Of a DNA stretch of 64,000 nucleotides, positions 26,462 to 49,323 are shown piece after piece. Each line of letters begins with the position of its first letter. Within the stretch, counting starts at the first letter, position 1. The notes below the pieces were generated by a model, which was given only the letters and a program-made list of their open reading frames with translations, was not told the origin of the DNA and made no database searches. This DNA comes from Nocardioides sp. (lineage in GTDB: Bacteria; Actinomycetota; Actinomycetes; Propionibacteriales; Nocardioidaceae), in NCBI RefSeq assembly GCF_029937575.1, contig NZ_JAPYPS010000007.1, positions 55,481 through 119,480 on the forward strand. Direction: 5' to 3'. The position numbers and the translations under genes were made by a program.

Positions 26462-27133
26462 GTGACCGAGACCGCCACCACCGCCACGACCCACGCCGCG
26501 CCTGCCCTCCTGGACCTCGGGCCCGTCGCCCAGCTGCGCGCAGGGCGACTGCCTCGACGCCTGGCGCAGCTGATGGTCGGCCTGGTGCTGTACGGCGCGT
26601 CCCTGGCGATGATGGTGCGTGGCGACCTGGGGCTGGCGCCCTGGGACGTGCTCCACTCCGGCCTCATCCAGCACGTGCCGCTGTCCCTCGGTCAGGCCGT
26701 GGTCGTGATGAGCTTCGTGGTGCTGCTGCTGTGGATCCCGCTCAAGGAGGTGCCGGGCATCGCGACGATCGCCAACGCGCTGGTCGTCGGTCTCGCCGCC
26801 GACGCCACGCTCGCCGTCCTGGATCGGCCCGAGGCGCTGTGGGCCGAGGCCGCGCTCACCGTCGGGGGCGTCCTGCTCTGCGGCTTCGCCACGGCGCTCT
26901 ACATCGGCGCCCAGCTCGGCCGAGGACCGCGCGACGGCTTGATGACCGGACTGCACCGGCGCACCGGCCTCTCGATCCGCCTGGTCCGGACCGGGCTCGA
27001 GGTCGTCGTCGTGCTCATCGGCCTCGCCCTCGGGGGAGTGGCCGGACTCGGCACCGTGCTCTTCGCTCTCGCGATCGGTCCGGTCGCGCAGGCCCTGATG
27101 CCGCGCTTCCTGGTGGAGCTGCCCGAACGATGA
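26462..27133 (+). CDS. YczE/YyaS/YitT-family membrane protein
   Basis: LMVGLVLYGASLAMMVRGDLGLAPWDVLHSGLIQHVPLSLGQAVV; RGPRDGLMTGLHRRTGLSIRLVR; divergent to a mocR gene as typical for yczE. Confidence 0.88.
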   Translation: MTETATTATTHAAPALLDLGPVAQLRAGRLPRRLAQLMVGLVLYGASLAMMVRGDLGLAPWDVLHSGLIQHVPLSLGQAVVVMSFVVLLLWIPLKEVPGIATIANALVVGLAADATLAVLDRPEALWAEAALTVGGVLLCGFATALYIGAQLGRGPRDGLMTGLHRRTGLSIRLVRTGLEVVVVLIGLALGGVAGLGTVLFALAIGPVAQALMPRFLVELPER

Positions 27134-27247
27134 TCCACGATGGCCGGTCCCGCGATGCCTCCGTCGCGGCTGTCGGTCGAGATGGGTAGTCTCCCCACAG
27201 CGCTACCCGGCGTGTCCCATCTCACCCGACCCCACGGTGGAGGAACG

Positions 27248-28486
27248 ATGACCACATCCGATGGAGCCGCTGCCGAGCCGATGCCGCTCGCACCCCCCGA
27301 CCCCGTGGTCACCCTGACAGCCCCCGAGCCGCCGGCCGTGGTGCTCGATACCCAGGCCCCCAAGATGGCGCCCCCGGTCTCGGCCGAGGCGCTGCCGGAG
27401 CTCGACGCCAAGGTGGACAGCTTCATGACGGCTCTGGGCGCCACCCAGGCCGGCAGCCCGGAGTTCGCCGCCCAGGCGGAGAACGTCCGCACCATGGGTG
27501 ACGCCGAGATCCGCAAGGCGGCCGAGACCTCCAACCGGATGCTCGACCGACCGGTCACCGCACTCAAGGAGGGCGGGCTCGCCGAGGGCTCGACCGTCGG
27601 CAAGACCCTCCTCGAGCTCCGCCGTACCGTCGAGGACCTCGACCCGAGCCAGGCCACCGGCGCCAAGCGCTGGCTGGACCTGTTGCCCTTCGGCGACAAG
27701 ATCACCGACTACTTCCGCAAGTACCAGTCGGCCCAGACCCAGCTCAACGGCATCCTGCACAGCCTGCGCAACGGTCAGGACGAGCTGACCAAGGACAACG
27801 TCGCCCTCAACCTGGAGAAGACCAACCTCTGGGCCACCATGGGTCGCCTCAACCAGTACGTCTACGTCGCCGAGCGCCTCGACGCCAAGCTGTCCGCCAA
27901 GATCGCCGAGCTCGAGCTCAGCGACCCCGACACCGCCCGGACCCTGAGCCAGGACGTCCTGTTCTACGTGCGCCAGAAGCACCAGGACCTGCTCACCCAG
28001 CTGGCGGTGTCGATCCAGAGCTACCTGGCGATCGACATCATCATCAAGAACAACATCGAGCTGATCAAGGGTGTCGACCGCGCCTCGACGACGACGGTCT
28101 CCGCGCTGCGCACGGCGGTCATCGTCGCGCAGGCGCTGGGCAACCAGAAGCTCGTCCTCGACCAGATCTCGGCGCTCAACACCACGACCTCGGGGATGAT
28201 CCAGCGCACCTCGGAGATGCTCAAGGACAACTCCGCGGCGATCCAGGAGCAGGCCGCGTCCTCGACCATCGGCATCGAGCAGCTGCAGGCCGCGTTCGCC
28301 AACATCTACGCCACGATGGACTCGATCGACGAGTTCAAGCTCAAGGCGCTGGACAACATGTCGGCCACGATCGGGGTCCTCGAGCACGAGGTCGACAAGT
28401 CGAAGTCCTACCTGGACCGCGTGCAGCAGCACGACGCCCGCAACGCCCAGGGCACCCTCGACCTGTCCGGCCAGCCGCTCAACTGA
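27248..28486 (+). CDS. TelA/KlaA family (toxic anion resistance) protein
   Basis: GAKRWLDLLPFGDKITDYFRKYQSAQTQLNGILHSLRNGQDELTKDNVALNLEK; DVLFYVRQKHQDLLTQLAVSIQSYLAIDIIIKNNIELIKGVDRASTTTVSALRTAVIVAQAL. Confidence 0.92.
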   Translation: MTTSDGAAAEPMPLAPPDPVVTLTAPEPPAVVLDTQAPKMAPPVSAEALPELDAKVDSFMTALGATQAGSPEFAAQAENVRTMGDAEIRKAAETSNRMLDRPVTALKEGGLAEGSTVGKTLLELRRTVEDLDPSQATGAKRWLDLLPFGDKITDYFRKYQSAQTQLNGILHSLRNGQDELTKDNVALNLEKTNLWATMGRLNQYVYVAERLDAKLSAKIAELELSDPDTARTLSQDVLFYVRQKHQDLLTQLAVSIQSYLAIDIIIKNNIELIKGVDRASTTTVSALRTAVIVAQALGNQKLVLDQISALNTTTSGMIQRTSEMLKDNSAAIQEQAASSTIGIEQLQAAFANIYATMDSIDEFKLKALDNMSATIGVLEHEVDKSKSYLDRVQQHDARNAQGTLDLSGQPLN

Positions 28487-28529
28487 TCCGCGTCGCTGCG
28501 GCGACCCCCGGTCGAGGAACGGACGTGAA

Positions 28530-29045
28530 GTGGGGCTGAAGCAATGGTGGAGCCGTCGACGCGGATCCGGCTCGGAGACCACGACCGTGCCCGCGCCACC
28601 GACCGAGCAGGACATCCTGGCTGCCCTCAACAGGGTCAACGCGATGCTCACCGAGGGCAACGCGCCGCCGATCGTGACCTCGCGGGTCGTGCGGATCGCC
28701 CGCGCGATCAACGACACGCTGCCGCGGCTGCGCAACCTGGGGCTCGGCAGCATGGAGGGCTACTCGGTGGTCGCGACCGCGACGACCTATCTGCCCGAGG
28801 CGGTCGGGGGCTACCTGCGCCTGCCGCGCGAGTGGGCCGACACCCGGCCGATCGACGGCTACAAGACGTCCCTGATGGTCCTCATCGAGCAGCTCGAGCT
28901 GCTCGCCTCGACGATGGACAAGATCCTCGACGCGGCCAACCGGGCCGATGCGCAGGCCCTGCTCGCGCACGGCATGTTCCTGGAGGCGAAGTTCGGACAC
29001 TCTGCCGGCGGCGGCCCCGACCTGCAGCTGGGCAGCCCGACGTGA
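28530..29045 (+). CDS. Small helical protein in the position occupied by XpaC next to TelA
   Basis: 171 aa, helical; LPRLRNLGLGSMEGYSVVATATTYLPEAVGGYLRLPREW; role from position only. Confidence 0.6.
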   Translation: MGLKQWWSRRRGSGSETTTVPAPPTEQDILAALNRVNAMLTEGNAPPIVTSRVVRIARAINDTLPRLRNLGLGSMEGYSVVATATTYLPEAVGGYLRLPREWADTRPIDGYKTSLMVLIEQLELLASTMDKILDAANRADAQALLAHGMFLEAKFGHSAGGGPDLQLGSPT

Positions 29046-29073
29046 ACCCCCTGCGCCCACCTAGGAGTACGAC

Positions 29074-30657
29074 GTGAGCACCACCGACACGCTGGCCACC
29101 GCCCTGGCCGCGCTCGAGCAGGTCGCCGCCGAGGCGGGGGTCCACCCGACGACCGCCCGTCGCGAGGGGGAGGCGCTCGCCGCCGCCGTCGCCGAGCCGT
29201 CGAAGGGCGCCTTCGTCGACTGGTGCACCGAGACGGGACGGTCCGCCTCGGCCGAGGAGTTCTTCGAGGCCGCCTCACGGGGTCGCCGCTACCGCTCGGC
29301 GCCGACCGCCTCGATGAGCGGCCTGGCCGCCGTCGGAGCGGCCACGGCCCCGTCGTACGCCGCAGCACTGGGCGACGTCGCCCTGGCCGCCGCCGCGCTC
29401 GGCACTCCCGATCCTCGGGCGACCGGCAACGCCGCCACCGCTGCTGCCGCGCAGCTGGGGGAGTCGCCGGTGGTGCGCCCACCGGTGCCGACCCTGGGTG
29501 ACGAGGTCACCTCCTCGCTCGTGCAGCAGCTCTCGGTCGTGCAGCGCAAGCTGGCCGGCCTGGACCTGGCGGGGCTGACGGGTCCGCCCGGCCGGCCTGG
29601 TCAGGCACACCCGGTGCCCACCGAGGGAGTCGACCCCTCGGGCGAGCCCCGCGACCAGGCGCCGGTGGCCACGCAGCCACCTCCCGACGGCATGCCCGAG
29701 CCGGAGGAGGAGCCCGAACCCGACGTGCCCGCCAAGAGCGTGGAGGAGCTGCTCGCCGAGCTCGACGCCCTCGTCGGGCTCGACGACGTGAAGGCCGAGA
29801 TCCACCGGCAGGCAGCGGTCCTGCGCGTGGAGGGTCTGCGTCGCGACGCCGGTCTGAAGTCGCCGACCATCACGCGCCACCTGATCTTCAACGGCAACCC
29901 CGGCACCGGCAAGACGACGGTCGCCCGCCTCGTCGCCGGGATCTACCGCGCGCTAGGTCTGCTCTCGAAGGGCCAGCTCGTCGAGGTCGACCGCTCCGAG
30001 CTCGTGGCCGGCTACCTCGGTCAGACCGCGATGAAGACCGCCGAGGTGGTCGAGTCCGCGGCCGGCGGGGTGCTGTTCATCGACGAGGCCTACTCGCTCT
30101 CCGGCGACCAGTACGGCCAGGAGGCGATCGACACCCTGGTCAAGGAGATGGAGGACCGGCGCGACGACCTGGTCGTCATCGTGGCCGGCTACCCGGTCCC
30201 GATGATGGTCTTCATCGGTCAGAACCCGGGCCTGGAGAGCCGTTTCCGCACCACCATCGACTTCTTGGACTACACCGACGACGAGCTCGTCGAGATCTTC
30301 GCGCTGATGGCCGGCGGGGCCGAGTACGACGTGGACGAGCCGATCCTCCAGCGGCTGCGCGAGGTGCTCTCCGGGGTCGAGCGGGGGCCGACCTTCGGCA
30401 ACGCCCGCTACGTGCGCAACATCCTCGAGGCCGCGATCGGGCACCACGCGTGGCGGCTGCGCGACATCGCCGAGCCCACGCTGGAGGAGCTGCGGCTGCT
30501 CGACGTCGAGGACCTCGCCGCGCCACCGGCGCCGGAGGAGAGCACCGACGCGCTCGGCCCGGACGGCGAGCTCGTGGCGCCCGGCGACGCCGAGGAGATT
30601 GCGCTCGTCGACATCGGGGAAGAAGACCCCGCACCCCACCAGCAGGAGTCCCCGTGA
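29074..30657 (+). CDS. AAA+ ATPase of CbbX/SpoVK type with N-terminal extension
   Basis: [68 protein letters not shown] (Walker A); [11 protein letters not shown] (Walker B). Confidence 0.92.
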
Positions 30658-31877
30658 GCCAGCAGGCGCCCCACCCCCAGCCGGCCGCGGACTTCGGCGA
30701 GGACGTCCCGCGGCTCCTCAACCGCCTCCAGGTGGCGGCGGTGGCCCTCTGCGTGCTGTTCGGGGTGCTGGCCGCGCTCTTCCAGGTCCTCTCGTGGCAG
30801 GCCAACGGCCGCGCGGCGGACAACACCGACCAGGTGGTGCGGGTCCAGGAGATCCAGACCTCGCTGCTGCGGGCCGACGCGATCGCCACGACGGCCTTCC
30901 TCGTCGGCGGCCTCGAGCCGCCCGAGGCGCGCGCGGCCTACGACGCCGCGGTCGACGACGTGCTGCGACTGATCACCGACGCCGCCGACGCCCAACCGGC
31001 CGACCGGCGGGTGCTCGCCGACCTCAACGTGGAGGTGCGCTCCTACACCACGGGCGTCGCCCAGGCTCGCGACTACAACCGACAGAACCTCGTCATCGGC
31101 ATCGCCTACCTCAACTCCGCCGGTGATGCGCTGCGTGAGGATGCCCTGCCCATCGTGCAGGCGCTCGTCGATGCCAACTCCGATCGCGCCCTCGACGAGA
31201 TGGACGGGCAGAGCCCGATCCTGCTGCTCCTCGTCGGGGTCCTGGCGGTCGGGGGGCTCGTGCTCGTCAACCGGGAGATCTCGCGTCGCTTCCACCGGCG
31301 GATCAACGTCGGGGTCGTCGGTGCCGCGGCCGGGATCGGCCTGCTGACGCTGGTCATCGCCGTGTACGCCGGCACCAAGTCCGGCTCCAACGCCGACACG
31401 CGCGACGGGGCCTACGACACCGCCGTCTCGGAGGCCTCGGCACGCACCGCCGCCAACGACGCCAAGGCGCAGGAGAGCCAGGGGCTGATCAACCGGGGCT
31501 CGGGGGCCCAGTACGAAGAGCTGTTCGCGGTGGCCGCCCAGACGGTCGAGGAGAACGCCTCTCCCGCGACGCTGCGTCTGTGGCGCGACTACGTGGTCGA
31601 GCACCAGGAGGTGCGTGACCTCGACGACCGCGGCAGCTGGGACGACGCCGTGGCGCTGGCCACGAGCAGCGACGCGGGCGACCCCACCGCAGCCCTCGAC
31701 GCCGTCGACGCGGCCGCCGAGCAGGTCGTGACCGACGCGGCCGCCGAGGCTGCCGACTCGTTCGGCTCGGGCGGCGTCGTGGCGCTCGCGCTCGCCGTCC
31801 TCACCCTGCTCGGGGGGCTGGTGGCCGCGGCCGCTGCCACCTGGGGCATCAACCAGCGACGTCGGGAGTACTCATGA
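30654..31877 (+). CDS. Membrane protein with tandem extracytoplasmic helical regions, GlnX-like
   Basis: Four hydrophobic segments bracketing two helical domains (4-TM layout); directly upstream of a GlnH-like SBP and a PknG-like kinase as in mycobacterial glnX-glnH-pknG. Confidence 0.7.
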
Positions 31878-32845
31878 AGCGCCCCTCGCCCTCCGGTCGC
31901 CTCGCCCGGCGCCGTACCTGGACGGGTCCCGTGGTCGCGCTGCTGCTCGTGCTCGCTGCCTGCGGCTACGACGAGACCACGGTGCCCAGCCCGGACCCGG
32001 CAACCGTCGAAGCCGGCGGTGACGACGGACCGTCGTGCACGAACGACGGCTCCCAGGTCCGCTCGTACGCGCCGGAGGGAGACGTCCTCGGCGGAGACGC
32101 GGTGGCGCGGATCCGCAAGCGCGGCAGGCTCGTCGCCGGCGTGGCCGCCGACACGTTCCTGCTCGGCTCGCGCGACCCGAGCGACGGCCAGATCAAGGGC
32201 TTCGACATCGACATGGCCACCGCCATCGCGGACAGGATCTTCGCACCGGCCACGGGCAAGCTCGAGCTGCGCGTGATCACCGCGGCGGAGCGGATACCCC
32301 TGCTCGAGGACGGCACGATCGACATCGTCGCGCGCAACATGACCGTCAACTGCGACCGGTGGCAGCAGATCGCGTTCTCCGCGATCTACTACGACGCCGG
32401 CCAGAAGGTGCTCGTCGGGCGCGACTCCGGCATCGAGGACATCGCCGGCCTCGCGGACAAGCGGATCTGTGCCCCAGGAGGCACGACCAGCATCCAGAAC
32501 ATCCAGACCATCCAGCCGGAGGCGATCCCGGTCACAGCGGGAGACAACTCGGCCTGCATGGTCCTCTTCCAGAACGGCGAGGCCGACGGGGTCAGCACCG
32601 ACGACACCGTGCTGGCAGGGCTGGCCGCGCAGGACCCGTACGCCGTCGTGCTCGACACCGACTTCCTCACCGCCGAGCCCTACGGCATCGGAGTCAACGC
32701 CGACGACGTGGATCTGGTGCAGCTCATCAACGTGGTCCTCGAGGAGATGCGCGCCGACGGCCGGTGGCAGGACTCCTACGACCGCTGGCTTCGGCCCTCC
32801 CTCCAGGTGCCGGGCAAGCAGCCCAGGCCGCAGTACGGGCGCTGA
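31874..32845 (+). CDS. Glutamate/aspartate-type solute-binding lipoprotein, GlnH-like
   Basis: Lipobox LLLVLAACGYD; KRGRLVAGVAADTFLLGSRDPSDGQIKGFDIDMATAIADRIF (SBP family 3). Confidence 0.88.
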   Translation: MKRPSPSGRLARRRTWTGPVVALLLVLAACGYDETTVPSPDPATVEAGGDDGPSCTNDGSQVRSYAPEGDVLGGDAVARIRKRGRLVAGVAADTFLLGSRDPSDGQIKGFDIDMATAIADRIFAPATGKLELRVITAAERIPLLEDGTIDIVARNMTVNCDRWQQIAFSAIYYDAGQKVLVGRDSGIEDIAGLADKRICAPGGTTSIQNIQTIQPEAIPVTAGDNSACMVLFQNGEADGVSTDDTVLAGLAAQDPYAVVLDTDFLTAEPYGIGVNADDVDLVQLINVVLEEMRADGRWQDSYDRWLRPSLQVPGKQPRPQYGR

Positions 32846-32851
32846 ACGCCC

Positions 32852-34000
32852 GTGACCGACACCTCCCCGACGATCACGGCGCCCGGGGCGCCCGGTGGGC
32901 TCGGCCAGGCGCCGCAGCCCTTCGCCATCCGCGAGTACCTCGATGCCCTCGAGGCCTGGGTGCGTGGACGCCGCCACGAGCTCGACCAGCTCGACTCGGC
33001 GGCACTGACGTCGGGTCGCGGGCGAGAGATCAGCGCGGACATCGCGCTGTCCCTGGCCCTGTGGAAGGCGGTCGCCGACCGCTACCAGCAGATGTTCGCC
33101 ACCTGGGACGGCGGCCGGGTCCTGGGCCCCGAGCGCGACAAGATCGCCGCCCTGATCTGGGGTCGCCTCGAGGCGGGGGGAGACCTGGCCGGCGTCCGCG
33201 GCATGGCGGTCACCGTGCCGGAGGCGTGCAAGCTCTCCGATGCTCTCGCCGCGCAGCTGCGCACCAAGCTGGCCCTGAGCCCCGGGGCAGGCCGGTCGGC
33301 GGCCCGGATCAAGGACCTGCGCGCCCAGTGCGAGCGACTGCGCGACCAGGTCGCGCTCGAGCCCGAGGTCGGTCGCGACGCGATCGTCGACCGCTTGGCC
33401 AACCTGATGGCACGACTCGACGACGTCACCACCCGAGCCGGTCGGGGCGCCGACGTCGGAGGCCTCCTCGGGCCCCTCGAGCAGGAGGCGGCCGTCTTCG
33501 AGCGTGACCTCATCGTGGGCAACGCGCGTCGTCGCGGCGCCCGTGAGCAGGTGGCCGCGGCGCGCTCCCTGCTCGCCGACCTCACGACCCGCGCCGCGGC
33601 GTTGCGTGAGCTGTCGCGGCGCTGCATCGCCACGGTCGACCCGGCGCCGCGCTACGCCGTACCCGACCTGGCGGCGCTGGGCCCGGTGCCCAACACCCCC
33701 GACGAGATCGGGCCCTACCTCGACCGGCTCAACCGGGTCGCGCAGGCACTCGCCATCGCCGACACCGCCTACTCCGAAGCCCTCACCGAGCACGCCGACC
33801 TTCTCGGGCTCCTCGACGCCTACGCCGCCAAGGCACGAGCCATCGGGATCGGCGACCGCGACGACCTGATGACCAGCGAGCGCCGCGCGCGAGAGGTGCT
33901 GGGGCGCAGACCCGCCCCGATGAGCGTCTGCCGCGCCCTGGTGACGGCCTACCAGACGTGGCTCACCCAGTTCGACCCTGCTGCTAAGGACCTTTCATGA
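32852..34000 (+). CDS. Hypothetical coiled-coil/helical protein
   Basis: 382 aa, mostly heptad-like helices; flanked by the SBP and kinase genes; stop overlaps kinase ATGA. Confidence 0.65.
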   Translation: MTDTSPTITAPGAPGGLGQAPQPFAIREYLDALEAWVRGRRHELDQLDSAALTSGRGREISADIALSLALWKAVADRYQQMFATWDGGRVLGPERDKIAALIWGRLEAGGDLAGVRGMAVTVPEACKLSDALAAQLRTKLALSPGAGRSAARIKDLRAQCERLRDQVALEPEVGRDAIVDRLANLMARLDDVTTRAGRGADVGGLLGPLEQEAAVFERDLIVGNARRRGAREQVAAARSLLADLTTRAAALRELSRRCIATVDPAPRYAVPDLAALGPVPNTPDEIGPYLDRLNRVAQALAIADTAYSEALTEHADLLGLLDAYAAKARAIGIGDRDDLMTSERRAREVLGRRPAPMSVCRALVTAYQTWLTQFDPAAKDLS

Positions 34001-36381
34001 GCACCTGCACCCAGCCCGGTTGCACCGGCGAGATCCAAGACGGCTACTGCAACGTGTGTGGCATGGCCGGCGCCACCGGGGCCCCGGCCGCCTCGTCGCC
34101 GGGCTCCGCTCCGGCGGCCGCGGCGAGCGGGGGTCCGCCCGCAGCCGACGGCTCCGCCTGCACTCAGCCGGGTTGTGGGGGCTCCATCGAGTACGGCTAC
34201 TGCAACACCTGCGGCATGGCGGCCGCGCCGTCGACGGGGGCCGCGACCGGCGCAGGCGGCCCGCAGGGCTCGGTGGCCGCCGTGGGCGACGAGGTGTCCG
34301 TGGCGACCTCGGCCAGCCGTGTGCAGTCCGCCGCCTTCGGCTCCGAGCGCGCCGCCGCCGGTTCCCTGGCCACACGCCGAGCGCGCTCCGGCTCGCAACG
34401 GCTGCGCGCGGCACGGATCGGCGCCGGTCTGACCAGCGTGCCACCGGCGCCTCCCGTCGACCCGTCGAAGGCGATCAACCCCCACCCCGAGGTCCCCGAG
34501 TCCAAGCGCAGCTGCTCCAAGTGCGGCAACGCGATCGGCCGCAGTCGCGACGGCGTACCCGGGCGCACCGAGGGGTTCTGTCCCCAGTGTGGCCAGGAGT
34601 ACTCCTTCACCCCCAAGCTCCAGCCCGGAGACATCGTCGCCGGCCAGTACGAGATGGTCGGCTGCCTGGCCCACGGCGGTCTGGGCTGGATCTACCTCGC
34701 CAAGGACAACAACGTCTCGGACCGGTGGGTGGTGCTCAAGGGCCTGCTCAACTCCGGCGACCCCGACGCGCTGGCCGCGGCGATCGCCGAGCAGCAGTTC
34801 CTCGCCCAGGTCGAGCACCCGCTGATCGTCGAGATCTACAACTTCGTCACTCACGAGGGCGCCGGGTACATCGTGATGGAGTACGTCGGCGGGCAGTCCC
34901 TCAAGCAGGTCCTGAAGGAGCGGATGCGCGCCAACGGTGGGGCCTACGACCCACTGCCGATCGACCAGGCGCTGGCCTACCTGATCGAGGTGCTGCCGGC
35001 CTTCCAGTATCTCCACGACCTCGGCCTGGTCTACTGCGACTTCAAGCCCGACAACATGATCCAGGTCGGCGACGCGATGAAGCTGATCGACCTCGGAGGC
35101 GTGCGACGCATCGACGACCTCGAGTCGGCGATCTACGGCACGATCGGCTACCAGGCGCCGGAGGTCGCCCAGGTCGGCCCGAGCATCGCCTCGGACATCT
35201 ACACGATCGGGCGCACGCTGCTCGTGCTGTGCATGGAGTTCCGTGGCTACCAGGGCACCTACCTGCACTCCCTGCCGCCGGTGGAGTCCACCCCGCTCTT
35301 CGCCCAGAACGACTCGCTCTACTGGCTCATCGCGAAGTGCTGCGAGCCCGACCCCGCCGACCGCTTCGCCTCGGCCGACGAGCTGCGCACGCAGATGCTC
35401 GGCGTGCTGCGCGAGGAGATCGGCGAGCGCACCATCGGCACGGCGGCCACGTCGGTGGCCTCGGTGCTGTTCGAGGCGCCGAGCACCTCCCGCTCGGTCC
35501 TCGAGTGGTCCCAGCTGCCCGACCTGCGCGACGACACCACCGACCCGCAGCACGCGTGGCTGTCCGGAGTGGGCGCCGAGGATCCCGCCGTACGGCTCAA
35601 GATGCTGACCGACGAGGCGCCCGAGCAGTCGCCCGAGGTGCGTCTGGCCCGGGGCTACGCCGCTCTCGACCTGGCCGACGTCACGACCGTCCACGCGATC
35701 GCCGCGGAGATGCTCGCCGAGGACCCGTGGGAGTGGCGGGCCCTGTGGATCGACGGACTGGCCTCGATGCAGGACCGTGACTGGGAGGGTGCGAAGGCGT
35801 CGTTCAACGCGGTCTACCAGCAGGTGCCGGGCGAGCTGGCCCCCAAGCTCGCCCTGGCCGTGGCGTGCGAGCGAGGCGGCCTGCCGCAGGTCGCCGAGCG
35901 GCTCTACATCACCTGCGCCTCGACCGACGCCGCCTACATCGCGGCCGCCGCCTTCGGGGTGGCCCGGATCCGGGCCGAGCGCCGCGACGCCGCGGCCGCC
36001 GTGGAGGCCCTCGACTGGGTGCCGCGCACGAGCCGCGGCTACCCCGAGAGCCGCCAGCTTCGTGCCGAGGTGCTGCTGGGTCAGGGCTCCTCCGACCTCG
36101 CGGTCCTGGACCAGGCGATGCGCTCCATCGAGTCGGCGTCCATGGACCCGGCGACCCAGGGGCGCTACACCGTGCGGATCCTCGAGCAGGGGCTCGCCAT
36201 CGTGCAGGCCGGAGGCGGCACGAAGAAGGCCAAGATCGGTTCGTACGACGCCGACGAGGCCGGCCTGCGCACCGGTCTCGAGCGCGGCTACCGGCTGCTC
36301 GCCCGCGACGCCCAGGCACTGCCCGAGCGGATCGAGCTCGTCAACCGGGCCAACGCGGTGCGTGTCTGGAGTTTGACATGA
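33997..36381 (+). CDS. PknG-like serine/threonine protein kinase with N-terminal zinc ribbons and C-terminal TPR-like region
   Basis: CTQPGCTGEIQDGYCNVCG, CTQPGCGGSIEYGYCNTCG, CSKCGNAIGRSRDGVPGRTEGFCPQCGQ; kinase VVLKGLLN, LVYCDFKPDNMIQVGDAMKLIDLGGVRR as in PknG. Confidence 0.9.
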   Translation: MSTCTQPGCTGEIQDGYCNVCGMAGATGAPAASSPGSAPAAAASGGPPAADGSACTQPGCGGSIEYGYCNTCGMAAAPSTGAATGAGGPQGSVAAVGDEVSVATSASRVQSAAFGSERAAAGSLATRRARSGSQRLRAARIGAGLTSVPPAPPVDPSKAINPHPEVPESKRSCSKCGNAIGRSRDGVPGRTEGFCPQCGQEYSFTPKLQPGDIVAGQYEMVGCLAHGGLGWIYLAKDNNVSDRWVVLKGLLNSGDPDALAAAIAEQQFLAQVEHPLIVEIYNFVTHEGAGYIVMEYVGGQSLKQVLKERMRANGGAYDPLPIDQALAYLIEVLPAFQYLHDLGLVYCDFKPDNMIQVGDAMKLIDLGGVRRIDDLESAIYGTIGYQAPEVAQVGPSIASDIYTIGRTLLVLCMEFRGYQGTYLHSLPPVESTPLFAQNDSLYWLIAKCCEPDPADRFASADELRTQMLGVLREEIGERTIGTAATSVASVLFEAPSTSRSVLEWSQLPDLRDDTTDPQHAWLSGVGAEDPAVRLKMLTDEAPEQSPEVRLARGYAALDLADVTTVHAIAAEMLAEDPWEWRALWIDGLASMQDRDWEGAKASFNAVYQQVPGELAPKLALAVACERGGLPQVAERLYITCASTDAAYIAAAAFGVARIRAERRDAAAAVEALDWVPRTSRGYPESRQLRAEVLLGQGSSDLAVLDQAMRSIESASMDPATQGRYTVRILEQGLAIVQAGGGTKKAKIGSYDADEAGLRTGLERGYRLLARDAQALPERIELVNRANAVRVWSLT

Positions 36382-37553
36382 GCACCCCCTCCAGCTGCCC
36401 CGCCTGCGGGGAGGTGCTCCCCGAGGGCGCGGTCTTCTGCGAGGCCTGCGGCTCGAAGGTCACCGGCCCGAGCTCCGTGGGCACTGGGGACGTGGACGTC
36501 GCTGCTGAGCCGGCACCGTTCGAGGAGCTCGGCAGCGGCCCCATCAGCGCCCCGACACGCATCACGCCGCTCGCGGGCTCCCCGGGTTTCTCGGGCGCCT
36601 CGGGGTCGGGCGCCGCCGGCGACCGCCCGTGTCTCGCGTGCGGCGCCGAGGTCGACGCCGACGGCTACTGCACCTCGTGTGGCACCAAGCAGCCCAGCGA
36701 GCGCGATCACTTCCGCGAGACCCCCGCCTCGTGGGTGGCGGGGGTCTGTGACCGGGGCATCGTCCACTCCGGCAACGAGGACGCGATGGCGCTGCTGGCT
36801 GACGAACCGGCCGGATCCCGTGCCGTGCTCGTGGTCCTCGACGGCGTCTCCAGCTCCATCGATTCCGACGTCGCCTCCTTGGCCGGCGCGCGCGCGGCGC
36901 GGGAGACCCTGCGCACCCCGCTCCCACGAGGGATGGGCACCGACCAGGGGCGCGACGCTGCCGTGGCTGCCGCCTTCGCCCACACGATCGAGGCAGCCAA
37001 CGGCGCCATCGTGGAGACCACCGCCGCGGACTCCGACTCCCCTGCGTCGGCGACGTTCTCGGTAGCGGTCGTGGAGGGCAACCGGCTCAGCGTCGCCAAC
37101 ATCGGCGACTCCCGCGTCTACTGGGTCCCCGATGTCGGCGAGGCGCTCCAGGTGACCGTCGACGACTCGGCTGCCCAGCAGCTGATGGAGGCGGGGATGG
37201 ACCGCGAGGCCGCCGAGAACGGACCGCAGGGGCATGCGATCACCCGCTGGCTGGGGCGCGACGCCCCGGACCTGACACCGCGCGTGGCCGCGCTCGACCT
37301 GACCGGTCCCGGCTGGGTGCTGAACTGCTCCGACGGGCTGTGGAACTACATCTCCGAGCCCAGCGCGATCACCGAGCAGGTCCGGGCGGTCGAGGCCACC
37401 GGGGCCACGGCACCGCTCGACGTGGCGCTGGGCCTGACGGCGTACGCCAACGCCTGCGGCGGTCGCGACAACATCACCGTGACCCTGGCGAGGATCGACG
37501 CACCCGTGCCCGCGACCGGGCAGAATCCTGTACCGACGAACGAGATCGACTGA
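36378..37553 (+). CDS. PP2C-family Ser/Thr phosphatase with two N-terminal zinc ribbons
   Basis: CPACGEVLPEGAVFCEACGSK, CLACGAEVDADGYCTSCGTK; RGIVHSGNEDAMALL...VVLDGVSSS...SVANIGDSRVYW...NCSDGLWNY...GGRDNITVTL. Confidence 0.92.
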   Translation: MSTPSSCPACGEVLPEGAVFCEACGSKVTGPSSVGTGDVDVAAEPAPFEELGSGPISAPTRITPLAGSPGFSGASGSGAAGDRPCLACGAEVDADGYCTSCGTKQPSERDHFRETPASWVAGVCDRGIVHSGNEDAMALLADEPAGSRAVLVVLDGVSSSIDSDVASLAGARAARETLRTPLPRGMGTDQGRDAAVAAAFAHTIEAANGAIVETTAADSDSPASATFSVAVVEGNRLSVANIGDSRVYWVPDVGEALQVTVDDSAAQQLMEAGMDREAAENGPQGHAITRWLGRDAPDLTPRVAALDLTGPGWVLNCSDGLWNYISEPSAITEQVRAVEATGATAPLDVALGLTAYANACGGRDNITVTLARIDAPVPATGQNPVPTNEID

Positions 37554-37564
37554 GAGGCAGACCC

Positions 37565-38842
37565 ATGGCCGAGTTCACCGCAAGCGTCTTCCAGAACGAG
37601 TACCTGCCCGACGGGGGGACCGACGTCAACGCGATCGTCACGGTGACCTGCGCAGGTGCCGGCACCGCCGGCCAGACCGGCGGGGGAGCCGCGGGCGAGA
37701 TCATCATCGTCGACACCTCCGGATCGATGGGCCCGCAGACGATGGCGGCGGCCAAGCAGGCGGCGACCGCGGCGCTCAACGAGATCGTCGACGGCACGTG
37801 GTTCGCCGTGATCGCCGGCTCCGACCGGGCGATGCTGGCCTATCCGGCGGTCTCCTCGGGCCCCGGCCTGGTCCAGATGAGTGCCCAGACCCGCTCCCAG
37901 GCGCAGCAGGCCGTGAGCCGGTTCGTCGGCAGCGGTGGTACGGCGATCTCCACCTGGCTCGACCTCGCCGGTCAGCTGTTCGGCTCGGTGCCGCAGGTCA
38001 CCCAGCGCCACGCGATCCTGCTCACCGACGGCGAGAACCGTGAGCGCGACGACACGTTCGAGGCGGCCATCGCCCGGGCGACGGGCTACTTCCAGTGCGA
38101 CTGCCGCGGCGCCGGCACCGACTGGCAGGTCGACGAGATCCGGCGGATCTCCCAAGCGCTGCTCGGCACCGTCGACATCATCCCCGAGCCCGGCCAGATG
38201 GAGACCCAGTTCCGCGAGATGATGCGGACCTCGATGTCGCGGGGTGTCGCCGAGGCTCAGCTGCGCGTCTGGTCGCCCCAGGGCGCCCAGGTGCTCTTCG
38301 TGCGTCAGGTCTCGCCGACCGTCGAGGACCTCACCGACCGCCGGGTCGTGATCAACCCCCTGACCGGCGGCTACCCCACGGGTGCCTGGTCCGACGAGTC
38401 GCGCGACTACCACGTCGCGGTCCGCGTGGCCGCCAAGGCGATCGGCCAGGAGCAGCTGGCCGCCCGGGTCATGCTCGCGGTCGGGGACGACGTGCTCGCG
38501 CAGGCGCTGGTGAAGGCGACCTGGTCCGGCAACTCCGAGCTGACCGCCAAGATCGACCAGCAGGTCGCCCACTACACAGGGCAGACCGAGCTCGCCGCGA
38601 TGATCCAGGAGGGCTTGGCCGCCAAGGCGTCGGGTGACGAGGCCACCGCGACCACCAAGCTCGGCAGGGCGGTGCAGCTCGCTGCCGAGACCGGCAACGA
38701 CGAGGCCACGTCCAAGCTCAAGAAGGTGGTCGACGTCCAGAACGAGCGTGAGGGCACCGTGCGCCTCAAGGCGGCCATCAACAAGGCCGACGAGATGGCG
38801 CTCGACACCGCCTCGACCAAGACCACCCGGATCAAGAAGTAA
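37565..38842 (+). CDS. VWA domain protein (MIDAS)
   Basis: EIIIVDTSGSMGPQTMAAAKQAATAAL (DxSxS); GGTAISTWLDLAGQLF. Confidence 0.9.
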   Translation: MAEFTASVFQNEYLPDGGTDVNAIVTVTCAGAGTAGQTGGGAAGEIIIVDTSGSMGPQTMAAAKQAATAALNEIVDGTWFAVIAGSDRAMLAYPAVSSGPGLVQMSAQTRSQAQQAVSRFVGSGGTAISTWLDLAGQLFGSVPQVTQRHAILLTDGENRERDDTFEAAIARATGYFQCDCRGAGTDWQVDEIRRISQALLGTVDIIPEPGQMETQFREMMRTSMSRGVAEAQLRVWSPQGAQVLFVRQVSPTVEDLTDRRVVINPLTGGYPTGAWSDESRDYHVAVRVAAKAIGQEQLAARVMLAVGDDVLAQALVKATWSGNSELTAKIDQQVAHYTGQTELAAMIQEGLAAKASGDEATATTKLGRAVQLAAETGNDEATSKLKKVVDVQNEREGTVRLKAAINKADEMALDTASTKTTRIKK

Positions 38843-38852
38843 GGCAGCAGCC

Positions 38853-39644
38853 ATGAAGTGTCCTGCCGGTCACGAGACCACCGCCACCGACTACTGCGAC
38901 ACGTGCGGCCTGGCGATGGATGCTCCGGCGCCGTCGGCTCCGGTCGACGACGCGCCGGCGAGCGCGGCCGCGCCTGCTGCTGCCTCGGGGGACGCCTGCC
39001 CCAACTGCTCCATCCCGGCTCCGCCCAACGCCCTGTTCTGCGAGAACTGCGGCTACGACTTCACCACGGGGGCGCTCCCACGCCCACCCGAGCCCGCGTC
39101 CTCGCTGGACCTCTCCGCGGGGTCCGGGGCCGGGCCCGGCGGCCCCGGTGACCTTGGCGACACCGCGGACGGCACGAGCGCGCCGGCCGTCGACGTACCC
39201 GGCGCAGCTGCCGACCTCAACCCGTCGCCGGCCCTCGACGACGCCTGGGTCGCGGAGATCTGGATCGACCCCGACTGGTACGCCGACCAGCAGAGTCCCG
39301 ACCCGCTGCCGTCTCCCGGGCTGCCCGCGGTCGTCGCGCTGCGGCACACGTCGGTGCTGATCGGACGCTCCTCGCGCAGCCGCAACATCGACCCCGGCAT
39401 CGAGCTCGACTCCGACTCCGGGGTCAGCCGTCGCCACGCCCAGCTGACCACCGACGGCTCCCGCTGGTTCGTCGAGGACCTCGGCTCCTCCAACGGCACC
39501 TACGTGGGTGGGGGCCTCGGCTCCCTGCCGACCACGGCGATCCCGGTGGGGCAGAAGACCGAGGTCGCCGGCGACGACCGCGTCTACCTCGGCGCCTGGA
39601 CGCGGATCGTGATCCGCAAGGCGCAGCCGGGTGAGGTGAGCTGA
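38853..39644 (+). CDS. FHA domain protein with N-terminal zinc-ribbon-like motifs
   Basis: CPAGHETTATDYCDTCGLAM and CPNCSIPAPPNALFCENCGYDF; VLIGRSSRSRNIDPGIELDSDSGVSRRHAQLTTDGSRWFVEDLGSSNGTYVGG. Confidence 0.92.
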   Translation: MKCPAGHETTATDYCDTCGLAMDAPAPSAPVDDAPASAAAPAAASGDACPNCSIPAPPNALFCENCGYDFTTGALPRPPEPASSLDLSAGSGAGPGGPGDLGDTADGTSAPAVDVPGAAADLNPSPALDDAWVAEIWIDPDWYADQQSPDPLPSPGLPAVVALRHTSVLIGRSSRSRNIDPGIELDSDSGVSRRHAQLTTDGSRWFVEDLGSSNGTYVGGGLGSLPTTAIPVGQKTEVAGDDRVYLGAWTRIVIRKAQPGEVS

Positions 39645-47589: not shown

Positions 47590-49323
47590 GTGAGCACCAC
47601 GCCGAGCAGCGACGCCCTCGTCACCGTGGGCGGTTACACGCTGCTGGCCAAGATCGGCGAGGGCGGGATGGGCGTGGTGCACCTCGCGCGGCGGCCCGGC
47701 GGTGACCGGGTGGCGCTGAAGGTGCTGCGCCCCCACATCGTCGGCGACGACGAGGCGCGCAGCCGGCTGGCCCGCGAGGTGAGCTCGCTGTCGCGGATCC
47801 GGAGCCGCTGGGTGGCCGAGATCGTCGACGCCGACCCCTGGGCGCCGGTGCCGTACGTCGCCACCCGCTACGTCCCCGGGCTGTCGCTGCACGACCACGT
47901 CGCCCACGAGGGCGTGATCGAGGGCAGCGACCTGCTGTGGTTCGCCGCCTGCCTCGCCGAGGGACTCTCGTCGGTGCACGGCGTCGGCGTCCTGCACCGC
48001 GACGTCAAGCCGTCCAACGTGCTGATGGAGGGCCGCACCCCGATCCTGATCGACTTCGGCCTGGCGCGCGTCGCCGACGACCCGCGCCTCACCCACACCG
48101 GGTGGTTGCTCGGCACCCCCGGCTACCTGGCCCCCGAGATCCTCTACGGCGAGGACGCCACGGCTGCCTCCGACGTGCACTCGTGGGCGGCCACCGTCGC
48201 GTTCGCGGCCACCGGGCGCTCGCCGTTCGGCCGGGGTCCGTCGATGGCGATCATGGATCGCGTGCGCCGCGGCCAGCACGACCTCTCCGGGTTGACGGGG
48301 ACTCTGCACGGGGTCGTCGTCGCCGCGCTGGACCCCGAGCCGCACCGCCGCCCGAGCCTCGAGTCGATCCTGGCCTGGCTCCGCCCCCAGACCACCCGGC
48401 CCTCGCCGGTCCTCGCCCCGGCTCCCGTGCCCGGACCGGGTCCGTCCGCCCGGGACGACGAGCCGGACCCGTTCGCGGCGACGATGGCGCTGTTCGCCCC
48501 GTCGTACGACGACGGGCCCGGCAGTGCGCCGGCGGCACCCACCCTCGTCGAGCCCCGGGCGCCCGGCGGCACCCGGCTGATGCCGACCGAGGCGCGGCCG
48601 TGGCCGGCCCCGTCACCGGCCCCATCACCGGCCCCGTCACCGGCCCCGTCACCTGAGTCCGCCGCTCCGACCCTCGCCCCGTGGCCGGGCGCGGCGCCGT
48701 ACCCGCCGCCGGGTGTCGACGGCGCCGGCCGGGAGGTCGCGTGGGAGGTGCCGGCAGAGCGGGTCGCGCTGGGCGAGCGCCTGCGCCGCCTCGTCATGGT
48801 GCTGGCGGGCGCGAGTGCGGTCGGTGCGGCGTGCGCCGCCGTACCCTGGCTCGCCGTCGCGGTCCTGGTGATCGCCGTCTGGCTGCTGCGCTCGGGTTCC
48901 CTGGCCGCCAGCGGTGTCGAGGCGCGCCGTCAGACCCGCGGCCGCAAGTGGTACGACGGGGTCCAGCTGCTCCTGCACACCCCCTGGCACCTCGTGCAGT
49001 CCATCGGCGGGACCGTGCTGCTCGTGCTCTGGAGCGCCGGGCTCGCGGCGGCCGTCGGCCTGGTCTGCTACGCCGTCAACGCCCCCCTGGCCTGGTCGCT
49101 CTTCGGCAGCGGCGTCGTCCTCGCGCTCTCGCTGTGGTGGGGGCCGGGTGGACGTCGCGTCCGCTCCCCGCTCGGGCGAGTCGTCACGCCGGCGAGCCGC
49201 ACGGTCGGGTGGTGGCTGATCGCGGTCACGGTGCTGCTGCTCGCGGCCGGTGGCGCCGGTGGTTGGGTGGCCGCCAACGACGTGTCCTGGACGCCGGGCA
49301 CCGGCGTGCCGTTCGAGCGCTGA
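47590..49323 (+). CDS. Serine/threonine protein kinase with Pro-rich linker and C-terminal TM region
   Basis: LLAKIGEGGMGVVHLARRPGGDRVALKVL; VLHRDVKPSNVLMEGRTPILIDFGLAR; PAPSPAPSPAPS repeat; C-terminal hydrophobic segments. Confidence 0.93.
   Translation: MSTTPSSDALVTVGGYTLLAKIGEGGMGVVHLARRPGGDRVALKVLRPHIVGDDEARSRLAREVSSLSRIRSRWVAEIVDADPWAPVPYVATRYVPGLSLHDHVAHEGVIEGSDLLWFAACLAEGLSSVHGVGVLHRDVKPSNVLMEGRTPILIDFGLARVADDPRLTHTGWLLGTPGYLAPEILYGEDATAASDVHSWAATVAFAATGRSPFGRGPSMAIMDRVRRGQHDLSGLTGTLHGVVVAALDPEPHRRPSLESILAWLRPQTTRPSPVLAPAPVPGPGPSARDDEPDPFAATMALFAPSYDDGPGSAPAAPTLVEPRAPGGTRLMPTEARPWPAPSPAPSPAPSPAPSPESAAPTLAPWPGAAPYPPPGVDGAGREVAWEVPAERVALGERLRRLVMVLAGASAVGAACAAVPWLAVAVLVIAVWLLRSGSLAASGVEARRQTRGRKWYDGVQLLLHTPWHLVQSIGGTVLLVLWSAGLAAAVGLVCYAVNAPLAWSLFGSGVVLALSLWWGPGGRRVRSPLGRVVTPASRTVGWWLIAVTVLLLAAGGAGGWVAANDVSWTPGTGVPFER
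48604..48655 (+). repeat. 12-bp in-frame tandem repeat (CCGGCCCCGTCA), about 4 copies, encoding PAPS
   Basis: ccggccccgtcaccggccccatcaccggccccgtcaccggccccgtcacc. Confidence 0.85.

Follow-up and report, generated by a model that had tools for sequence, protein, structure and literature searches.

The question raised by a 64,000-nucleotide stretch of Nocardioides sp. DNA (contig NZ_JAPYPS010000007.1, hereafter the window) is whether ten adjacent genes at 27248-39644, in which a PknG-type kinase with GlnX- and GlnH-like proteins stands beside a TelA-family protein, form one signalling machine or are merely neighbours. In mycobacteria and Corynebacterium, GlnX and GlnH drive PknG (PMC6069109, PMC9769921), and homologs of TelA act in envelope stress, that of nisin and tellurite in Listeria (PMC12791056) and that of overproduced membrane proteins in L. 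lactis (PMC3139573). We found that several soil actinobacterial families retain or lose the ten genes as a set, which suggests that they encode one undescribed signalling machine. The features of the island are as follows:

27134-27247, + strand: leader; its -10-like TAGTCT probably belongs to the only promoter of the operon
27248-28486, + strand: telA, 412 aa, toxic anion resistance family (Pfam PF05816, 1.7e-92)
28530-29045, + strand: small helical TelA partner, 171 aa, in the position that XpaC holds in Firmicutes
29074-30657, + strand: AAA+ ATPase, 527 aa, of the CbbX/SpoVK/EccA type, with an AAA+ lid and an N-terminal domain of its own (PF00004 and PF17866; TIGR02881, 273 bits)
30654-31877, + strand: GlnX-like membrane protein, 407 aa, four transmembrane-like segments by hydropathy (NF058618, 2.3e-67 over 387 aa)
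31874-32845, + strand: GlnH-like solute-binding lipoprotein, 323 aa (SBP_bac_3; lipobox LAAC in the translation)
32852-34000, + strand: coiled-coil helical protein, 382 aa, no Pfam family over the cut-off
33997-36381, + strand: PknG, 794 aa, two zinc ribbons, rubredoxin, kinase and TPR (PF16919, PF00069, PF16918)
36378-37553, + strand: zinc-ribbon PP2C phosphatase, 391 aa (PF13672, DZR)
37565-38842, + strand: VWA protein with a VWA_3_C domain, 425 aa (PF13519 and PF18571)
38853-39644, + strand: FHA protein with a double zinc ribbon, 263 aa (PF00498, 1.9e-12)

The ten open reading frames (ORFs) have coding-like codon usage and stand where the original prediction had placed them; their common direction and the four 4-nt overlaps (30654-30657, 31874-31877, 33997-34000 and 36378-36381) are exactly as it had claimed, and its domain assignments hold in Pfam and NCBIfam. 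The overlaps recur across loci at most junctions, for example between the coiled-coil gene and pknG in 29 of 39, between the AAA+ gene and glnX in 25 of 39, and between glnX and glnH in 23 of 31; the AAA/GlnX overlap (-4 nt) is the junction between the TelA-side and PknG-side modules. A -10-like TAGNNT lies within 150 nt upstream of telA in 34/55 loci, of glnX in 1/58 and of pknG in 0/67, a promoter signal that is suggestive only because the pattern was picked from the same sequences in which it was counted. As the sole recurrent element of its kind, the one upstream of telA is probably the single operon promoter, and a generic sigma-70 promoter and terminator scan gave no match. The tRNA-Gln called by ARAGORN inside telA (27927-28012, - strand) is without Rfam support and is probably a false positive.

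The case for a single unit is carried by its distribution. Among 149 genomes of the order, with TelA counted at >250 bits, both TelA and PknG were present in 69 and neither in 78, while PknG alone (G260) and TelA alone (G161) occurred once each; in 67 of the 69 genomes with both, the two genes share a contig, at a distance of about 7-9.5 kb. When 40 further loci were compared, all ten genes were found in order in 27, of which 25 have no interrupting gene; the remaining loci lack glnH (eight), have the VWA or FHA gene displaced or missing (four), or carry a second PknG copy (one). A contig scan with the AAA+ profile recovered the ten genes in at least the following, among the matches listed: Nocardioides immobilis (NZ_QXGH01000011), Terrabacter tumescens, Granulicoccus phenolivorans, Kribbella albertanoniae, Cellulomonas phragmiteti and Paraoerskovia sediminicola, in the last of which pknG is split in two by the gene caller; in the same scan a Dermatophilaceae contig and a Friedmanniella metagenome-assembled genome (MAG) contig are truncated. 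No further TelA-PknG linked case was found in 297 genomes of the phylum. Because gene order is kept in many genomes and the 4-nt overlaps recur, the island is more than a chance neighbourhood, and the proposal that the ten genes act as one evolutionary unit is borne out. The original prediction had named, as grounds for giving it up, linkage confined to very close strains with TelA unlinked elsewhere; neighbourhood comparison contradicts the former, since the island spans several families, and the latter is true in part, since outside this lineage TelA usually lies apart from PknG, yet the island itself is found in multiple families.

Independent searches of 148 genomes from the class, one for PknG_TPR and one for TelA, followed by a reading of the neighbourhoods, allowed the two halves of the island to be traced separately. 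The arrangement GlnX-GlnH-coiled coil-PknG-PP2C-VWA-FHA is present in families f16 and f17, the order PknG-PP2C-VWA-FHA-GlnX-GlnH in family f15, and GlnX-GlnH-PknG only, as in mycobacteria, in family f4. The seven-gene module is widely distributed among Actinomycetes; the part already known is GlnX-GlnH-PknG. In these four families TelA is unlinked to PknG and usually adjoins the small protein, and beyond that TerD or a solute-binding protein (SBP) gene with an SBP-VWA fusion. In this survey the two modules were fused in the window's genus and, with one extra ORF, in a single genome (G010) from a different family.

Several related arrangements were seen in passing. In L084, L085, L090 and L091 TelA adjoins TerD-like genes, a classic Ter association; PF02342 was confirmed for L084 and L090, and three of these four loci also have the same small protein. 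Two Acidimicrobiia MAGs (L124 and L144) have a related AAA+ gene followed by an SBP-VWA family gene, with an SBP-like gene between them in L124, an arrangement resembling the TelA-SBP-VWA loci of other families. A second PknG_TPR type with a VWA gene and no recognised PP2C occurs in f16/f17 genomes (L071, L072, L074, L075 and L096).

The chromosomal site and the gene trees bear on how the unit arose. In many congeners the island is flanked on one side by a membrane-protein gene (26462-27133) and on the other by a methyltransferase-leuB-ilvE block; it is patchy within the genus, and the flanks are adjacent in seven of 15 island-less congeners, the rest having other genes there or a methyltransferase that was not found. 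On a weakly supported tree of 34 loci, presence and absence require at least five changes of state. In the TelA tree 54 of 56 sequences fall in one clade, with G069 within it. The island AAA+ proteins form a clade (support 0.99) that also includes the G069 TelA-AAA pair and one truncated contig, the island VWA sequences form one clade (0.75), and island PknG forms a clade together with two TelA-less relatives (low support, 0.44). These trees favour, and fit, essentially one assembly that was later inherited and lost as a unit. A mobile-element origin was considered and set aside, as neither a boundary repeat nor an integrase was picked out. At the same site, with the membrane-protein gene on one side and the methyltransferase on the other, three island-less congeners (L208, L209 and L214) have a different three-gene set of about 500, 225 and 490 aa. 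Downstream in the window, at 47590-49323, there is another Ser/Thr kinase gene, near leuB/ilvE and transport genes, and kinase-like genes are close to ilvE in several congeners too.

The signalling proteins have the residues expected of working enzymes and readers. The best PDB match of the kinase is PknG itself (2PZI, 1.4e-135); its catalytic Lys/Asp/Asp and the rubredoxin Cys are invariant (54/54), as are the PP2C metal-binding motif residues (51/51) and the G-R/S-R/N-G of the FHA domain (38/38), where a His follows the Ser-Arg motif in 31 of 38. Since these catalytic and phospho-binding motif residues are invariant, the enzymes and readers of the island look active. Zinc ribbons occur in the kinase (two), the phosphatase and the FHA reader alike, and might serve as a shared docking module. 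With its motifs intact, the adjacent set of zinc-ribbon kinase, PP2C and standalone VWA protein qualifies as a kinase-PP2C-vWA triad. The TerY-P triad, reportedly described by Anantharaman in 2012, is a comparison for such a set. In actinobacterial conflict loci a Zn-ribbon kinase-PP2C-vWA triad has been described beside GAP1-N2 (PMC7159879); the island resembles it in its predicted active kinase with zinc ribbons, predicted active PP2C and adjacent standalone VWA protein, but differs in that the kinase is a PknG with its own GlnX/GlnH receptor, TelA, the small protein and the AAA+ protein are attached, and no GAP1-N2 partner was recognised.

The FHA protein of the island was considered as the GarA/OdhI substrate of PknG and rejected: it scores 30.6 bits against the OdhI model (cut-off 200), whereas the true ortholog, at 174 bits, is encoded elsewhere in the genome (G000:C59) and persists in genomes without PknG. 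Nor could a GarA-like ETT phospho-site be upheld in its N-terminus, where the candidate lies in the zinc ribbon in the loci examined and is not conserved.

On the receptor side, the core is homologous to the mycobacterial GlnX-GlnH-PknG, as had been proposed. The three genes are co-directional and neighbouring, with one extra gene, that of the coiled-coil protein, between glnH and pknG. GlnX matches NF058618 over its full length at 228 bits, under the NCBI cut-off of 250, and scores 57 bits against the equivalog NF041460 (cut-off 780). The best PDB relatives of GlnH are the M. tuberculosis GlnH structures 6H2T/6H1U (E about 8e-60), in which Asp/Glu is contacted by residues that include the side-chain set R147, T162 and W232 (PMC6069109). 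Only R147 of this set is kept; T162 is Asn in 40/47 TelA-linked loci, and nearly all have His, Asp or Asn in place of W232. The residues that contact the backbone of the amino acid (S or T at 164, R169, D250) are kept, which together with R147 makes an amino-acid-like ligand plausible, while the changes at T162 and W232 leave Asp/Glu specificity unsupported. The Asp/Glu sensing of the original prediction is therefore not borne out, the more so as eight otherwise similar loci are missing glnH. In these eight the gene is cleanly deleted and glnX runs into the coiled-coil gene, with a 4-nt overlap in six, so the receptor can apparently work without the GlnH lipoprotein or with another.

On the TelA side, the AAA+ Walker A and B motifs (48/48) and the metal-ion-dependent adhesion site (MIDAS) of the VWA protein (52/52) are invariant. 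Against the EccA equivalog of type VII secretion the AAA+ protein scores 230 bits (cut-off 467), over the AAA region only. The small partner and the coiled-coil protein belong to no family and are both predicted to be helical; their models (AF2) have pLDDT values of 82 and 92.5, respectively, and no significant PDB fold match. The small partner adjoins TelA in most unlinked TelA loci, and in 18 relatives it has no Pfam family and no PF10112 match; hhalign against the XpaC profile gave E 0.022 and a probability of 2%. Weakly similar proteins hold the coiled-coil position upstream of PknG in other families.

Compared with described systems, the island is like the GlnX-GlnH-PknG module of Mycobacterium and Corynebacterium (PMC6069109, PMC8546545, PMC9769921) in its three families, their order and the rubredoxin, kinase and TPR of PknG, but adds the coiled-coil protein, PP2C, VWA and FHA; it also departs from the mycobacterial module in that the GlnH side-chain pocket is changed or GlnH is absent, GlnX falls under the NCBI subfamily cut-off and the FHA protein is not OdhI/GarA. 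It shares TelA, a VWA protein and an ATPase with the Ter system (PMC7824862), and related TelA-small pairs adjoin TerD in other families; unlike the Ter system with its TelA, TerD and TerF, the island is without TerB, TerC, TerD and nucleotide-signal enzymes, for which there was no Pfam match among its ten proteins. With the XpaC-TelA operon of Firmicutes (PMC12791056, PMC3139573) it has in common TelA beside a small helical partner and a link to envelope stress, but the small protein lacks the XpaC Pfam match, and a kinase and an AAA+ protein are added. Every part is of a known kind; the literature searched held no description of this fixed combination of genes, and nothing relevant on TelA with PknG or on TerY with PP2C.

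We propose, with a probability of about 0.4, that the operon encodes one signalling machine, a ligand-gated kinase/phosphatase switch that governs a sub-membrane TelA/AAA/VWA complex. The GlnX membrane receptor, usually with the GlnH lipoprotein, would sense a ligand outside the cytoplasm, which is probably an amino acid or a similar small molecule, and control PknG in the cytosol; this kinase and the local PP2C would set the phosphorylation of proteins from the same operon, and the zinc-ribbon FHA protein would read the mark. The output would be the VWA protein, the CbbX/EccA-type AAA+ protein and TelA with its small partner, as a sub-membrane complex assembled or remodelled for envelope-stress tolerance. 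Such a switch is favoured by the envelope-stress role of TelA (TelA and XpaC are induced by, or protect against, envelope stress in Listeria and Lactococcus; PMC12791056, PMC3139573), by the sub-membrane structures proposed for TelA and TerF-VWA in Ter systems (PMC7824862), and by the kinase-PP2C-vWA triad. In a bolder form, which we hold tentatively, PknG would here not serve the classic GarA/OdhI switch, but would directly control assembly of a Ter-type TelA/AAA/VWA machine via the phosphatase and the FHA reader; through reversible Ser/Thr phosphorylation, a solute outside the cytoplasm would then gate the remodelling of the envelope.

Several points weigh against a single machine. The classic output of PknG is metabolic, through OdhI/GarA. 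In other lineages each module occurs without the other and so does not require it, and the dispensability of glnH makes the input uncertain. The Fisher p for the co-occurrence of TelA and PknG (1.6e-40) ignores shared ancestry, and the genus tree is poorly supported. The separation of the modules, together with the GarA/OdhI ortholog at G000:C59 (174 bits), is also what favours two functions on one transcript, with PknG controlling, as it does in mycobacteria, GarA/OdhI and the 2-oxoglutarate node, and TelA, the small protein and the AAA+ protein an independent envelope-stress cassette fixed upstream. We consider this unlikely, though it deserves weight: the GarA/OdhI ortholog, whose acceptor motif is partly changed, is present in 20/20 genomes tested, and genomes that have PknG and genomes that lack it show similar N-terminal acceptor regions; the near-perfect all-or-nothing inheritance and the translational overlap of the modules would be unexpected; and the GarA model gives no role to the local PP2C, VWA and zinc-ribbon FHA proteins.

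A conflict or defence island, in which a patchy Ter-like system detects a phage, bacteriocin or xenobiotic attacking the envelope and stops its entry beneath the membrane, would accord with the Ter components proposed for TelA and TerF-VWA (PMC7824862), with kinase-PP2C-vWA triads beside conflict systems (PMC7159879) and with the patchiness within the genus; it is nevertheless improbable, as the island has no toxin or nuclease, PADLOC returned generic kinase and AAA domain hits only with no system-specific match, and the chromosomal site is conserved, the clades largely vertical and the context not mobile. Less probable still is nutrient-gated control of a housekeeping process such as cell-wall or amino-acid metabolism, with the AAA+ protein as an enzyme activase like CbbX. 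The AAA+ protein is CbbX/SpoVK-like, and in the window's genus the island lies near leuB and ilvE with serA upstream, but the neighbours differ in other genera and the conserved ten include no metabolic enzyme.

Studies of PknG have dealt with its part in metabolism and virulence and with a single main output; TelA is a stress protein that is widespread but of obscure mechanism. A conserved operon that ties PknG to TelA together with a phosphatase, a reader, a VWA protein and an AAA+ protein offers a genetically tractable route to the function of TelA and to other targets of PknG-type kinases, and suggests that mycobacteria, with their three-gene GlnX-GlnH-PknG operon, have one version of a module that is larger in other Actinomycetes.

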